61,453 bases of DNA from Oscillospiraceae bacterium (GTDB lineage: Bacteria > Bacillota > Clostridia > Oscillospirales > Acutalibacteraceae). Below the pieces are notes generated by a model, which was not told the DNA's origin, searched no databases, and was given only the letters and a program-made list of their open reading frames with translations. The stretch lies in NCBI GenBank assembly GCA_015065445.1, contig SVQF01000003.1:1-61453 (forward strand). Direction: 5' to 3'. The position numbers were made by a program, and so were the translations under genes. Below are positions 54,970 to 61,252 of the stretch, piece after piece. Position 1 is the first letter of the stretch. Each line of letters starts with the position of its first letter.

Positions 54970-56031
54970 ATGAAAAAAATTGTAAAAAGATTATTGGCGG
55001 CTTGCCTTACTGTAGCTCTTGTTGCGGCAGTATTTGCAGGATGCAGCGGCGGAAAAGACAGTAAAAACGGCGGCAGCGATGCTGCAACAATCGGTCTTTT
55101 CTACTGTTCAGCAGAGGCTAACTCAAAGTATCAGGTAGAAAAAATCAGTGAAGAGTTGTCAAAACTCGGTTATGAAACAAAAGAATATTCTTTTGCTGAC
55201 TCTAACGACCTTGCAACAGTTCTTAACACAGCTGTTTCGGAATGTAAGGCAATCTATGTTCCTACAGATAACACCTGTGCAAGCAACGCAGAGCTTATCA
55301 ACAACATCTGCGAGCCAAAAGGTATTCCTGTAATCGCAGGCGAAGAGGGCATTTGCGAAGGTTGCGGCGTGGCAACACTTTCTATTTCTTACTATGACCT
55401 CGGCGTTGTAACAGGTAAGATGGCTTACGAAGTTCTTGTTAACGGTGCAGACATCAAGACAATGGACATTTCGTATGTTGACGCTTCAACACTTGTTAAA
55501 AAGTATGTTTCTGACAGAGCAGACAAACTCGGCATCAAGGTTCCCGAAGGATTTGTTGCAATCGGCGGTGACGCTGCAGTAGCAGAAAACAAACTCCCGA
55601 GCGACCTTCCTTCATACACCGGCGACAAGGTATTCAACATCGGTATCTGCCAGCTTGTACAGCACCCTGCACTTGACGCAGCAACACAGGGCTTTATGGA
55701 CTCTTTAACACAGATGCTCGGCAAAGACCACGTTAAATTTGACAATCAGAACGCATCAGGCGATTCTGCAACCTGTGCAACAATCGTTAACCAGTTTGTA
55801 TCAAAGAACGTCGATTTAATTCTTGCCAACGCAACTCCTGCACTTCAGGCTGCAGTTTCTGCAACACAGACAATTCCGATTCTCGGTACATCTGTAACAG
55901 AATACGGCGTAGCTCTTGACATCAAGGACTTTGACGGAAAAACAGGCATTAATGTTTCGGGTACATCAGACCTTGCACCGCTTGACCAGCAGGCTGCTTT
56001 ATTCGAAGAACTTAATATTGCTAAAGGTTAA
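54970..56031 (+). CDS. ABC transporter substrate-binding lipoprotein, TrpX-like, circularly permuted
   Basis: 353 residues. Lipoprotein signal with lipobox FAGC (Cys25). In TrpX-type proteins (ABC_sub_bind family) the order is an N-lobe block G-I-Q-HPALD...NAxGD...ATPAxQ...GTSD, followed by a C-lobe block GxLYxSxExNS...VDAIYVPTDNT...G..YYDLG..TGKMA...LGIKVPE. Here the C-lobe block comes first (residues about 40-195: IGLFYCSAEANS, AIYVPTDNT, YYDLGVVTGKMA, LGIKVPEGF). A linker of about 25 residues follows, and then the N-lobe block (221-353: IGICQLVQHPALDAA, NASGD, ANATPALQAA, NVSGTSDLAPL) ending where the hinge would be. Both halves are complete, in one frame and one signal-bearing protein. 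The gene precedes permease and ATPase genes, so it should be the functional binding protein. Tryptophan or another aromatic compound is the likely ligand class, by family. Confidence 0.9.
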   Translation: MKKIVKRLLAACLTVALVAAVFAGCSGGKDSKNGGSDAATIGLFYCSAEANSKYQVEKISEELSKLGYETKEYSFADSNDLATVLNTAVSECKAIYVPTDNTCASNAELINNICEPKGIPVIAGEEGICEGCGVATLSISYYDLGVVTGKMAYEVLVNGADIKTMDISYVDASTLVKKYVSDRADKLGIKVPEGFVAIGGDAAVAENKLPSDLPSYTGDKVFNIGICQLVQHPALDAATQGFMDSLTQMLGKDHVKFDNQNASGDSATCATIVNQFVSKNVDLILANATPALQAAVSATQTIPILGTSVTEYGVALDIKDFDGKTGINVSGTSDLAPLDQQAALFEELNIAKG

Positions 56032-56192: not shown

Positions 56193-57098
56193 ATGGGTTC
56201 ATTACTTGCATCAATGCCCGGTGCCGTTGCGTACGGCATAATCTGGGGTATGATGGCAATCGGCGTATATATTACCTTCAGAGTACTTGATATCGCCGAC
56301 CTTACGGTTGACGGCTCAATGGCGACTGGCGGCATCGTGCTTGCGGTTCTTGTAAAGAACGGTGTTAATATATACCTCGCAGTTGCAGTCGCATTTTTAG
56401 TAGGCTGTTTATCAGGCCTTGTAACAGGTATTTTTCACACGTTTTTCGGCATACCTGCAATACTTGCGGGTATCCTTACGCAGCTTAGTCTGTATTCCGT
56501 TAACCTCAGAATATCGGACAAAAACTCAAACGTGCCTGTAAGTGCAAGAAATTTAAGTCACATTCTTCTTACATCGGGCGATAACAAAAAATCAATAATA
56601 ATCGGCATTATTTTTGCGGTTGTGCTGATTGTGCTTTTGTACTGGTTCTTCGGCACAGAGTTCGGCTCTTCGGTCAGAGCAACGGGCTGCAATCAGGCAA
56701 TGGCAAGGGCAAACGGTATCAACACAAGGTTTAACGTAATCTTCGGTCTTGTTCTTTCTAACGGTATAGTTGCACTTTCGGGTGCTCTTTACGCTCAGTA
56801 TCAGGGCTTTGCAGATATTAATATGGGACGTGGTGCAATCGTAATCGGTCTTGCAGCCGTAATTGTCGGCGAGGTTGTTCTCGGCAAGATTTTCCGCAAT
56901 TTTGCACTAACGCTCGTTTCGGTTGTATTCGGCGGTATTATTTACTATATCGTTCAGAATATCGTTGTATGGATGGGTCTGGATGCAAACGACCTCAAAC
57001 TTCTTTCGGCAGTTCTTGTTGCACTCTTCCTCGGACTCCCGTACTGGAAAGGCATATTAGCCTCAAAAAGAGTTAAGAATAAGGAGGTTAAAGAATAA
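56193..57098 (+). CDS. ABC transporter permease (TrpY-like, BPD_transp_2 family)
   Basis: 301 residues, about 8-9 membrane helices. The start GAVAYGIIWGMMAIGVYITFRVLDIADLTVDGSMATGG is characteristic of the permeases paired with ABC_sub_bind proteins. The block GSSVRATGCNQAMARANGINTRFNVIFGLVLSNGIVALSGALYAQYQGFADINMGRGAIVIGLAAVIVGE contains the conserved cytoplasmic coupling loop. It is separated from the binding protein gene by a terminator plus promoter and overlaps the ATPase gene by one base (TAATG). Confidence 0.9.
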   Translation: MGSLLASMPGAVAYGIIWGMMAIGVYITFRVLDIADLTVDGSMATGGIVLAVLVKNGVNIYLAVAVAFLVGCLSGLVTGIFHTFFGIPAILAGILTQLSLYSVNLRISDKNSNVPVSARNLSHILLTSGDNKKSIIIGIIFAVVLIVLLYWFFGTEFGSSVRATGCNQAMARANGINTRFNVIFGLVLSNGIVALSGALYAQYQGFADINMGRGAIVIGLAAVIVGEVVLGKIFRNFALTLVSVVFGGIIYYIVQNIVVWMGLDANDLKLLSAVLVALFLGLPYWKGILASKRVKNKEVKE

Positions 57099-57895
57099 TG
57101 CTTGAAATCAAAAACGTTCACAAAACCTTTAACCCCGGCACTATCAATGAAAAAAAGGCACTTAACGGTATCGACCTTGTGCTCAATGAGGGCGACTTCG
57201 TAACCGTCATCGGCGGTAACGGTGCAGGCAAATCAACAATGCTTAATATGGTTGCGGGCGTTTATCCCGTGGACTGCGGAAGCATTACAATCGACGGCGT
57301 TGACGTTACCAAACTTCCCGAACACAAAAGGGCAAAGTATATAGGCAGAGTGTTCCAGGACCCTATGACGGGTACCGCAGCCAATATGCAGATTATCGAA
57401 AACCTTGCCCTCGCATCAAGACGTGGGCAGTTCAGAGGGCTTGGCCCCGGCGTTCGCCGTAAGGAAAAAGAACAACTCAGAGAAATGCTTTCGCATCTTG
57501 ACCTCGGACTTGAGGACAGACTAACCTCTAAGGTTGGACTTCTTTCGGGCGGCCAGCGTCAGGCAATCACTCTGCTTATGGCAACACTCAAAAAGCCAAA
57601 GCTCCTTTTGCTCGACGAGCACACTGCGGCTCTTGACCCCAAGACCGCCAAAAAGGTGCTTGACCTTACCGAAAAGATTGTCAGCGAAAACAACCTCACA
57701 ACCATAATGATTACTCACAATATGCGTGACGCAATCAACATCGGCAACCGCCTTGTTATGATGAATAACGGCAAAATAATTTACGATGTTTCGGGTGAGG
57801 AAAAGAAGAGCCTTCACAAATCCGACCTGCTTGAAAAGTTCAAGACAGGGGCAGGCGAAGACCTCGAAAACGACAGAATGCTCCTTGCAGAATAA
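57098..57895 (+). CDS. ABC transporter ATP-binding protein (TrpZ-like)
   Basis: 265 residues. Walker A GGNGAGKSTMLN (about residues 38-49), Q-loop in VFQDPMTGT, signature LSGGQRQAITLLM (about 148-160), Walker B KLLLLDEHTAALDP and switch His in MITHNM. The residues after the signature (Leu-Leu-Asp-Glu-His) are as in ATPases of the TrpZ/YnjD type. Couples ATP hydrolysis to uptake through the preceding permease. AAGGAGGT ribosome site. Terminator follows immediately. Confidence 0.94.
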   Translation: MLEIKNVHKTFNPGTINEKKALNGIDLVLNEGDFVTVIGGNGAGKSTMLNMVAGVYPVDCGSITIDGVDVTKLPEHKRAKYIGRVFQDPMTGTAANMQIIENLALASRRGQFRGLGPGVRRKEKEQLREMLSHLDLGLEDRLTSKVGLLSGGQRQAITLLMATLKKPKLLLLDEHTAALDPKTAKKVLDLTEKIVSENNLTTIMITHNMRDAINIGNRLVMMNNGKIIYDVSGEEKKSLHKSDLLEKFKTGAGEDLENDRMLLAE

Positions 57896-59208: not shown

Positions 59209-59490
59209 ACTGAAAAAATTACAGTACCTACAAAAGACTGTGATGCAGAAAAAGATTTTTCATTTTAGTTTCAGAGAGTCGGCGGACGGTGCGAGCCGAC
59301 ACAAAATGATTAGTGCATAGCTCTCTGCGGAGTCGCTGTCCTGAATAGTAATCAATAGGGGCAGACGGTTAACCTCGTTATCGGTTGAGGCATTGTTTGA
59401 TGCTAAAGATGGCAGTTTTACCTTCTGCCGAAGTAGGGTGGTACCGCGTTTCTTACGCCCCTATACGTTAGTGTGGGGGCTTTATTATTT
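59209..59490 (+). promoter_or_regulatory. T-box leader, predicted to respond to uncharged leucyl-tRNA
   Basis: Stem I is recognisable from CAGAGAGTCGG, the GGTGCGAGCCGAC apical motif, CATTTT/AAAATG pairing, and base pairing of GACTGTGA with TCGCTGTC. The antiterminator carries the invariant T-box sequence GGGTGGTACCGCG (59436-59448). A terminator stem (GCCCC...GGGGGC, 59456-59480) with TTTATTATTT follows. The specifier loop 3' side contains a CTC (59321-59323) next to the lower stem and a TTA nearby, both leucine codons; CTC is favoured but not proven. It lies directly ahead of leuA. Readthrough when leucyl-tRNA is uncharged is the established mechanism. Confidence 0.93.
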
Positions 59491-59515
59491 GCCTCACACG
59501 GGAAGGAGAATCATT

Positions 59516-61252
59516 ATGAAAAAAGGTTTTGAAAAGTACACACCGTTTACTCCGATTAACATTCCGGACAGACAGTGGCCTAACAACGTTATTACAAAGG
59601 CACCCGTATGGTGTTCGGTTGACCTTCGTGACGGCAACCAGGCACTTGTTGACCCGATGAATCTGCAGGAAAAGCTCGAGTTTTTCCAGACTCTTGTTGA
59701 CGTAGGATTTAAAGAGATTGAGGTAGGCTTTCCGTCTGCGAGCGAAACCGAGTACGAAATTCTGCGTACTCTTATCGACGGCGGATATATTCCCGACGAC
59801 GTTACGATTCAGGTGCTTGTTCAGGCAAGACCTCACCTCATCAAAAAGACTTTTGAGGCTATTCACGGTGCAAAAAATGTAATTGTTCATTTTTACAATT
59901 CAACCTCGACCCTTCAGCGTAAAGTCGTATTTAAGACCGATATGCAGGGCGTTATTGACATCGCAGTAAAAGGTGCAAAACTTATTTACGAACTGACCGA
60001 AGAGGAAAAGAAAAATAATCCCGATATGAACATCCGCTTTGAGTATTCTCCCGAATCCTTTACGGGAACCGAGATGGACAATGCGGTTGAAATCTGCCGT
60101 CAGGTTATGGAAGAACTCCACATCACCAAGGAAAACCCGATTATCCTTAACCTGCCGTCAACGGTTGAGTGTTCAACACCTAACGGCTACGCAGACCAGA
60201 TTGAATACTTCTGCCGCCATCTGCCAAACAGAGAGGCAGCGATTATTTCGCTTCACCCTCACAACGACCGTGGCGAAGGCGTTGCAGCAACTGAACTTGC
60301 ACTTATGGCAGGTGCAGACAGAGTTGAGGGTACGCTCTTTGGCAACGGTGAAAGAACGGGTAACGTTGACGTTGTCACGCTTGCACTCAATATGTGGACT
60401 CAGGGTGTTGACCCCGAACTTGACTTCCACGACATAAACAAAATCAGAGAAGTTTACGAACGCTGCACCAAGATGCAGGTTCCGCCCCGTCATCCGTACG
60501 CAGGCGAACTTGTGTTCACCGCTTTTTCAGGCTCTCATCAGGACGCTATCAACAAGGGCAAAATCTATATGGAAGAGAGCAAATCGGAGATGTGGGAGGT
60601 TCCGTACCTTCCAATCGACCCTGCCGACGTTGGCAGAGAGTACGAGCCGATTATCCGCATAAACTCGCAGTCGGGCAAGGGCGGCACGGCGTATATTCTT
60701 TCAAACAACTACGGCATCAAGATGCCTAAGGCTATGCATCCCGAATTCGGTGCGGTAGTTCAGAAGGCGTGCGACGAAAAGGGAACAGAACTTTCGTCTG
60801 CAGAGGTGTTCGACCTGTTCCAGAAGGAATACAGAAACGTTGCAGGCCCGTACAAACTCCGCAACTATAAGGTTTATGAAGAAAAGGTTGAGGAAGAGGA
60901 ACTTTCAAAGGTTAAGTTTGAAGGCACAATCACATATAAGGGCGGCGAGCCTGTTGACATCAAAGGTGAAGGCAGCGGACCGATTGGTGCGTTCTTCACC
61001 GCAATACAGGCTATCGGCGTAACGGGTTATGAGTTTATAGATTACAGCGAACACGCAATCGCAGTAGGCTCCGATTCAAAGGCTATCAGCTATATTCACC
61101 TTAAAAATCCAAAAGGCAAGGACGTGTTCGGCATCGGCGTTAGCCATAATATCAGTTATGCGTCGATGAAAGGAATAGTATGTGCAATCAACCGTGACCA
61201 GCCCGACACCTACCGTGACGACACAATGCCCGGCATTTTCGACATCTGCTAA
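59516..61252 (+). CDS. leuA: 2-isopropylmalate synthase, LeuA type 2
   Basis: First committed step of leucine synthesis: acetyl-CoA plus 2-ketoisovalerate. 578 residues, the length of the type 2 (fungal-like) enzymes. Catalytic DRE-TIM barrel with VWCSVDLRDGNQALVDPM (about residues 35-52), NLPSTVECSTPNGYAD, ISLHPHNDRGEGVAATELALMAGADRVEGTLFGNGERTGNVD, and a C-terminal regulatory domain (about 440-578) for leucine feedback. The ATG has GGAAGGAG 8 nt upstream; earlier in-frame ATGs lie within the T-box terminator. The stop is followed 20 bp later by leuB. Confidence 0.96.
   Translation: MKKGFEKYTPFTPINIPDRQWPNNVITKAPVWCSVDLRDGNQALVDPMNLQEKLEFFQTLVDVGFKEIEVGFPSASETEYEILRTLIDGGYIPDDVTIQVLVQARPHLIKKTFEAIHGAKNVIVHFYNSTSTLQRKVVFKTDMQGVIDIAVKGAKLIYELTEEEKKNNPDMNIRFEYSPESFTGTEMDNAVEICRQVMEELHITKENPIILNLPSTVECSTPNGYADQIEYFCRHLPNREAAIISLHPHNDRGEGVAATELALMAGADRVEGTLFGNGERTGNVDVVTLALNMWTQGVDPELDFHDINKIREVYERCTKMQVPPRHPYAGELVFTAFSGSHQDAINKGKIYMEESKSEMWEVPYLPIDPADVGREYEPIIRINSQSGKGGTAYILSNNYGIKMPKAMHPEFGAVVQKACDEKGTELSSAEVFDLFQKEYRNVAGPYKLRNYKVYEEKVEEEELSKVKFEGTITYKGGEPVDIKGEGSGPIGAFFTAIQAIGVTGYEFIDYSEHAIAVGSDSKAISYIHLKNPKGKDVFGIGVSHNISYASMKGIVCAINRDQPDTYRDDTMPGIFDIC

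Follow-up and report, generated by a model that had tools for sequence, protein, structure and literature searches.

The window, the whole 61,453-nucleotide stretch of DNA analysed here, comes from an Oscillospiraceae bacterium (assembly GCA_015065445.1, contig SVQF01000003.1) and carries on its forward strand the gene of a lipoprotein, P0001, together with the permease and ATPase genes of an ABC transporter. The features are listed below.

54970..56031 (+): permuted TrpX/ABC_sub_bind lipoprotein P0001, an ORF of 353 aa, stop codon included in the coordinates
54970..55044 (+): lipoprotein signal peptide ending ...VFAGC (Cys25), read from the sequence without a signal-peptide predictor
55078..55554 (+): canonical C-half, now first, residues 37-195 (phmmer and lobe scan)
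55342..55344 (+): Glu125, equivalent of CD0873 Glu263 (alignment)
55390..55392 (+): Tyr141, equivalent of CD0873 Tyr279 (alignment)
55555..55626 (+): fast-evolving linker (residues 196-219) that bridges the former C- and N-termini (alignment, dN/dS)
55627..56028 (+): canonical N-half in last place, residues 220-353, with its end after LAPLDQQAALFEEL (phmmer, lobe scan, alignment)
56193..57098 (+): permease, PF02653 BPD_transp_2 (Pfam, operon context, permease tree)
57098..57895 (+): ATPase, PF00005 ABC_tran (Pfam, operon context)

The sequence-only reading had claimed that the two halves of a TrpX-type binding protein are swapped in P0001, in the order signal, C-half, linker and N-half, and this was borne out by Pfam and by three solved structures. 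PF04392 (ABC_sub_bind) matched P0001 with 165.8 bits against a gathering cut-off of 25.9, not as one colinear match from N-half to C-half but as two stretches in reverse order. In phmmer searches against 6hni, 3lft and 3lkv, query residues 219-344, 223-348 and 220-348 were aligned to the first half of the respective chain, and residues 37-177, 38-200 and 39-197 to its second half, with per-stretch E-values of 1.3e-22 to 1.4e-8. By descent, as judged from the tree described below, P0001 is a permuted member of PF04392. The NCBIfam equivalog for tryptophan-binding TrpX, NF041285, gave it 202.2 bits, below the curated cut-off of 390, and the two canonical relatives tried also stayed under 390, at about 245 bits.

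Pseudo-symmetry of the two lobes posing as a permutation was rejected, because first halves matched C-half queries and second halves N-half queries, and because canonical ORFs in the same lobe scan gave the order N-C. Before overlapping loci were merged, the scan comprised 96 N-C, 39 C-N, 2 C-N-C, 1 N-C-N-C and 5 single-half entries. The N-C-N-C entry (L118, 961-2910, +, from the phylum sample) is a 649-aa fusion of two complete TrpX-type proteins followed by a permease gene; its copies are only 48% identical in the N-halves and 53% in the C-halves, so the fusion is old. Another long ORF, L124 (669 aa), was considered as a fusion and discarded: it is a canonical gene whose long 5' extension matches nothing in Pfam.

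The site of the cut was located by comparison with canonical relatives. The canonical congener L020 reads ...GTSDLAPLAEQAAMIKEL-CPQAK-TVAILYCSAEANS... across it, while P0001 ends in ...GTSDLAPLDQQAALFEELNIAKG and starts, after the signal and tether, with ...DAATIGLFYCSAEANS, and the canonical piece absent from P0001 amounts to no more than a loop of some 4-5 residues, which is CPQAK in L020. The signal peptide is of the type found in canonical congeners such as L020 (...VFAGC), and the linker, in a by-eye reading of the alignment, resembles a canonical C-terminal tail joined to a mature N-terminal tether that lacks its signal peptide. In the canonical relative CD0873, the available part of PMC6816091 describes two domains connected by three hinge loops.

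The C-terminus had been placed at the crossover between the lobes, and here the reading needed correction: the chain ends after LAPLDQQAALFEEL, which in the alignment of canonical relatives follows the crossover region and precedes the strand that opens the second half, and by type I topology this would be past the crossover. We take the LAPLDQQAALFEEL stretch to be a helix of lobe 2, as type I topology suggests. With that last helix in lobe 2, the cut would fall just past the crossover, the new ends would lie in a single helix-strand loop, and the lipid anchor would hang from lobe 2 rather than lobe 1. The chain would thus run from signal peptide and lipid anchor through the canonical second half and a linker of about 24 residues to the canonical first half, and both lobes should still be able to close on the ligand.

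A full-length, colinear permuted homologue was found in 10 of 80 genomes of the genus, that of the window included, and these are called group A; one further genome of the genus has a truncated permuted copy on a chimeric contig. The nine other group-A proteins are 77-85% identical to P0001 in the alignment. The lobe scan gave C-N for every full-length group-A copy and N-C for the canonical relatives. On the question raised from the sequence, whether proteins with the swapped order form a clade, these 10 full-length orthologues support one, with a clade support of 100/100. Seven long and one partial permuted matches (L034-L041) look like group-A genomes seen twice, and the records with titles among the genomes with a permuted gene are metagenome assemblies. 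In L014/L041 and L054 the permuted gene runs into an unrelated gene, a probable assembly chimera; by our reading, the foreign parts are a permease-like stretch with Xs and a short-chain-dehydrogenase-like stretch.

P0001 is the sole copy in its genome, where three further weak matches touch only the signal regions of other genes. Among the matches listed for the 10 group-A genomes, which are incomplete, no close canonical copy stands beside the permuted gene, and the highest second match, a gene of group B (described below) in genome G018, reached 72.3 bits.

Both halves of group A are under purifying selection. Over the 45 pairs of the 10 genes, the median dN/dS was 0.093 for the C-half (43 usable pairs), 0.072 for the N-half (44 usable) and 0.335 for the linker (31 usable), and the values of the halves reject a pseudogene. 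Conserved columns were defined as those with at least 95% conservation in 40 canonical rows chosen by hand from 82; group A keeps on average 95% of 46 such columns in the N-half and 89% of 46 in the C-half, and two N-half and five C-half columns are mostly changed. Mean identity of group A to its nearest canonical rows was up to 71% in the N-half and 62% in the C-half.

The permease and ATPase genes noted 3' of the permuted gene were indeed present, with SBP-permease-ATPase in 10/10 group-A loci. In genomes G063 and G056 a DAHP synthase gene lies before the permuted gene (L007, L010), the family being assigned by NCBIfam for L037 (the gene of G063) and by homology for the others. A DAHP synthase gene was also found in the short upstream slice of 12 of 19 canonical loci of the genus (L015-L033), and the 8 of these 12 that were displayed have the same order and strand as the permuted loci of G063 and G056. 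In the window and in G018, G021 and G011 the permuted gene is divergent from a gene labelled RNY, presumably ribonuclease Y, and LEUA lies downstream of the permuted operon in the window and G011. The same slot between RNY and LEUA in G019 (L055) holds two canonical binding-protein genes in tandem (RNY - SBP - SBP - permease - ATPase - LEUA).

Further along the window, a T-box leader at 59231-59465 (+) precedes the isopropylmalate synthase (leuA) gene at 59393-61252, whose called ORF start (TTG) overlaps the leader, so that the true start is probably further in. A gene of the LtrA family (PF06772; 57959-59143, -) lies between the ABC operon and leuA, and is not at that place in L055.

In a permease tree of 119 rows built by a quick method, the 10 group-A permeases formed one clade nested in a set of 44 rows, 34 of them canonical (SH-aLRT 98). 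This position among canonical congeners suggests an unchanged transporter whose binding protein was altered. A simple change in place is spoken against by the tandem canonical genes of congeners, which fall in another subclade of the binding-protein tree. In the binding-protein tree the nearest row to group A was the canonical L094 of another genus (98/95), whose permease is placed elsewhere than those of group A, and because of this conflict between the two trees the permuted gene may have arrived by transfer rather than arisen in place.

To assign a ligand, we compared specificity residues. The available part of PMC6816091 reports that CD0873 recognises tyrosine via Glu263 and Tyr279, with Glu263 bonded to the tyrosine hydroxyl. 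The position of Tyr279 is Gln in the Trp-binding SP1069. Their equivalents, Glu125 and Tyr141 in P0001, are kept in 10/10 group-A rows and in 21/21 chosen canonical relatives; the pair is common, with Glu in 63 and Tyr in 78 of the 82 canonical rows. No T-box was detected before the window gene at E up to 0.1, or in any of the five group-A loci examined (window, L036, L037, L137, L138). The two CD0873 residues point to tyrosine as the most likely ligand of group A, and the aromatic class is also indicated by the DAHP synthase neighbours.

Taken with the orthologues, the purifying selection on both halves, the kept specificity residues and the operon, the proposal of a natural permutation in the TrpX family was upheld. 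Half order, clade, conservation, selection and operon were observed or computed for group A, and it is very likely that P0001 is a naturally circularly permuted, working type I binding lipoprotein of an ABC importer for an aromatic amino acid, most likely tyrosine.

How group A arose is less firmly fixed. We infer that a tandem duplication came first and that the outer halves were then lost, a route that had been suggested from the sequence and is plausible. The tandem canonical genes in the same slot (L055) and the N-C-N-C fusion L118 speak for it, and no intermediate or remnant was found: the flanks of the 10 group-A loci, of limited length, held no trace of the lost halves at E up to 1. The tandem genes of the congeners also belong to a different binding-protein subclade from group A, and together with the lack of a remnant this leaves the duplication route only plausible. 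Fission of the gene and re-fusion of its halves would be in keeping with the lack of remnants, and in the available part of PMC3320104 it is the second main model for circular permutation beside the duplication model. Separate half-genes were not met in the genomes scanned for other purposes, however, and with tandem genes in the same slot of L055 and the existing fusion L118, we consider this second route unlikely.

Instead of closing on itself, the permuted chain could form a domain-swapped dimer in which the halves of one molecule pair with the complementary halves of another, and duplication with domain swapping has been proposed in the history of this fold (PMC9815098, available part). 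But the linker of 24 residues, longer still in group B, seems enough for closure, and the permuted TpMglB-2 is reported as monomeric and functional in the accessible part of PMC4990184, which makes the dimer improbable. Another possibility is that P0001 no longer serves in transport and now acts as an adhesin or sensor, as its canonical relative CD0873 also acts in adherence (PMC6816091, available part). Against this, the permease and ATPase genes lie 3' of the gene in 10/10 loci, the group-A permeases group with canonical ones and the two specificity residues are kept, so a loss of transport is very improbable. Finally, a misassembly of two adjacent canonical genes in this metagenome-assembled genome, a concern raised at the outset and fed by its 119 contigs and by the truncated chimeric copies of permuted genes that do exist (L014/L041 and L054), is rejected with near certainty by the same junctions in nine other genomes at 77-85% identity (one on a 472-kb contig), conserved chain ends and linker position among the orthologues, and the lack of a canonical copy in the window genome at E up to 0.01.

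The permuted binding protein is not confined to group A. A second set, group B, was found in 8 of 80 genomes of the genus of the window (L047-L053; L054 is truncated) and in a second genus of the same family, where 13 of 39 genomes have it, 11 of these being matched over nearly full length. Its cut loop is that of group A and its linker is longer. Group-B proteins are 27-29% identical to P0001, and their mean identity to their own canonical relatives is up to 75% (N-half) and 70% (C-half). SBP-permease-ATPase was seen in all 10 group-B loci of one set and all 7 of another.

A T-box lies directly 5' of the group-B gene in 9/9 loci of the second genus (L125, L127, L165-L171; L126 left out), and by eye its specifier reads UGG (Trp) in 9/9, with a second place also matching the pattern in L167 and L169. 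The available part of PMC9382623 gives UGG as the specifier of the Trp T-box of S. suis trpX. Four group-B loci in the genus of the window (L048, L051-L053) had no T-box at the gathering score; of two canonical B loci, L133 has one (UGG) and L128 none. A TrpB-like gene precedes the group-B gene in L048 and L051 (above the NCBIfam cut-off) and in L052 (by homology); L053 has a fragment of such a gene after the ATPase gene. The ligand of group B is probably tryptophan. At the two CD0873 specificity positions group B has Ala and Tyr in 10/10 rows, the pattern of the Phe-binding VC_1101, and the Trp-type specifiers of its T-boxes contrast with this Phe-type look.

A third set, group C, has the form C'-N-C'' and was found in 9 of 118 genomes sampled from another family of the order, the nine coming from six genera. 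Its loci are as follows.

L122, 1945-2979 (-): group C, C'-N-C'' form
L123, 2073-3116 (+): group C, C'-N-C'' form
L143-L150: group C, C'-N-C'' form

The chain begins midway through the C-half, which in L123 is at ...LPIVCGE, and finishes with ...TDNTLANGIATVHSVNMGE; this defines a second cut site. The lobe scan gave C-N-C in all nine genomes, and SBP-permease-ATPase was present in 9/9. A T-box was found in three of the nine, with the specifier UAC (Tyr) in two and an unreadable one in the third, and Glu and Tyr stand at the CD0873 positions in 2/2 rows compared, so that the ligand is probably tyrosine. Group C had surfaced in the wider search merely as an odd partial span. That search used the permuted A+B profile on samples of the order (394 genomes), the class (391) and the phylum (398); no more than five candidates were scored per genome, and class and phylum matches were kept only below 1e-55. 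Among the matches listed no further permuted group appeared, which is weak evidence of absence.

To investigate the relationship between the three groups, the 107 distinct two-half ORFs were re-ordered, single-half ORFs being left out; after removal of two ORFs whose lobes were short and division of the fusion into its two copies, there were 106 rows (82 canonical, 10 A, 10 B, 2 C and 2 fusion halves) and 299 columns. In the resulting tree each group formed one clade (A 100/100, B 97/99, C 100/100), and in separate N-half and C-half trees (quick method) all three were again single clades, with a support of 81 for B in the C-half tree. AU tests rejected A+B (p 1e-46), and with it one shared permutation for A and B, as well as B+C (p 7e-5) and A+C (p 0.014). 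The last is the weakest rejection, and the program warned of long branches at group C; the cut sites of A and C also differ. With every pairing rejected on the re-ordered sequences, the alignment-based trees indicate that the permutation arose at least three times within one bacterial order, at two cut sites.

The bacterium lives in the gut, and P0001 would be its amino-acid-binding surface protein. We tentatively propose, as a possibility rather than the favoured account, that moving the lipid anchor off lobe 1 and onto lobe 2 was itself selected and the permutation is a repeated adaptive route. A single order has seen three independent permutations, of which two cut the same loop; in each of the three the anchor comes to stand ahead of a strand from the canonical C-half (regarded as lobe 2), and specificity residues and transporter partners were kept. 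If so, permutation would retune how the tethered protein closes on its ligand or docks with the permease. Circular permutations that occur in nature tend to be ancient, and their history is difficult to follow. Here the high identity to canonical kin, the common operon slots and the at least three origins provide matched natural pairs on which the influence of chain order and anchor position on folding, closure and transport can be tested directly, and the repeated swap is a natural experiment in how far binding proteins tolerate rewiring. The natural cut points could be used in biosensor design, and there is a caution in that colinear alignment hides permuted proteins.

Compared with known systems, P0001 is similar in sequence, in both halves, to the canonical lipoproteins CD0873 (6HNI), SP1069 (3LFT) and VC_1101 (3LKV), and shares with canonical TrpX-type proteins the CD0873 specificity residues, the lipoprotein signal and the permease and ATPase partners. 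Unlike them, it has its halves reversed, its termini in the loop after the first crossover, the old termini linked and the anchor moved. Half-proteins of the type I fold made in the laboratory, as far as the sources available describe them, share fold and permutation with P0001, which is natural. The sequence-only reading knew of no such protein in the TrpX family, and no description of permuted TrpX/ABC_sub_bind proteins was found among the open-licence PMC papers listed. A permuted type I protein is already described in another family. This is TpMglB-2 (Tp0684) of Treponema, a circularly permuted lipoprotein of the MglB family that is monomeric and binds glucose, for which its authors proposed the name 'Type Ic / Cluster Bc' and suggested an adaptation to membrane anchoring (PMC4990184, available part). 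According to the same part, the first three strands of its N-lobe now stand at the C-terminus, a displaced portion that shows only 13% identity, and its relatives occur in Gram-positive gut bacteria. Both proteins have a naturally permuted chain order, a lipid anchor and an ABC transporter beside them, and P0001, permuted in its sequence order, would likewise be a permuted type I binding protein. As a member of PF04392 cut after the N-half, P0001 has neither the MglB family nor the cut within the N-lobe sheet of that type, and set against what is described of TpMglB-2 it differs in its amino-acid family, other cut sites, closer canonical kin and at least three origins. The kind of protein is thus already known from TpMglB-2; what is new is that it occurs in this family and with these cut sites, and that it arose repeatedly near canonical relatives.
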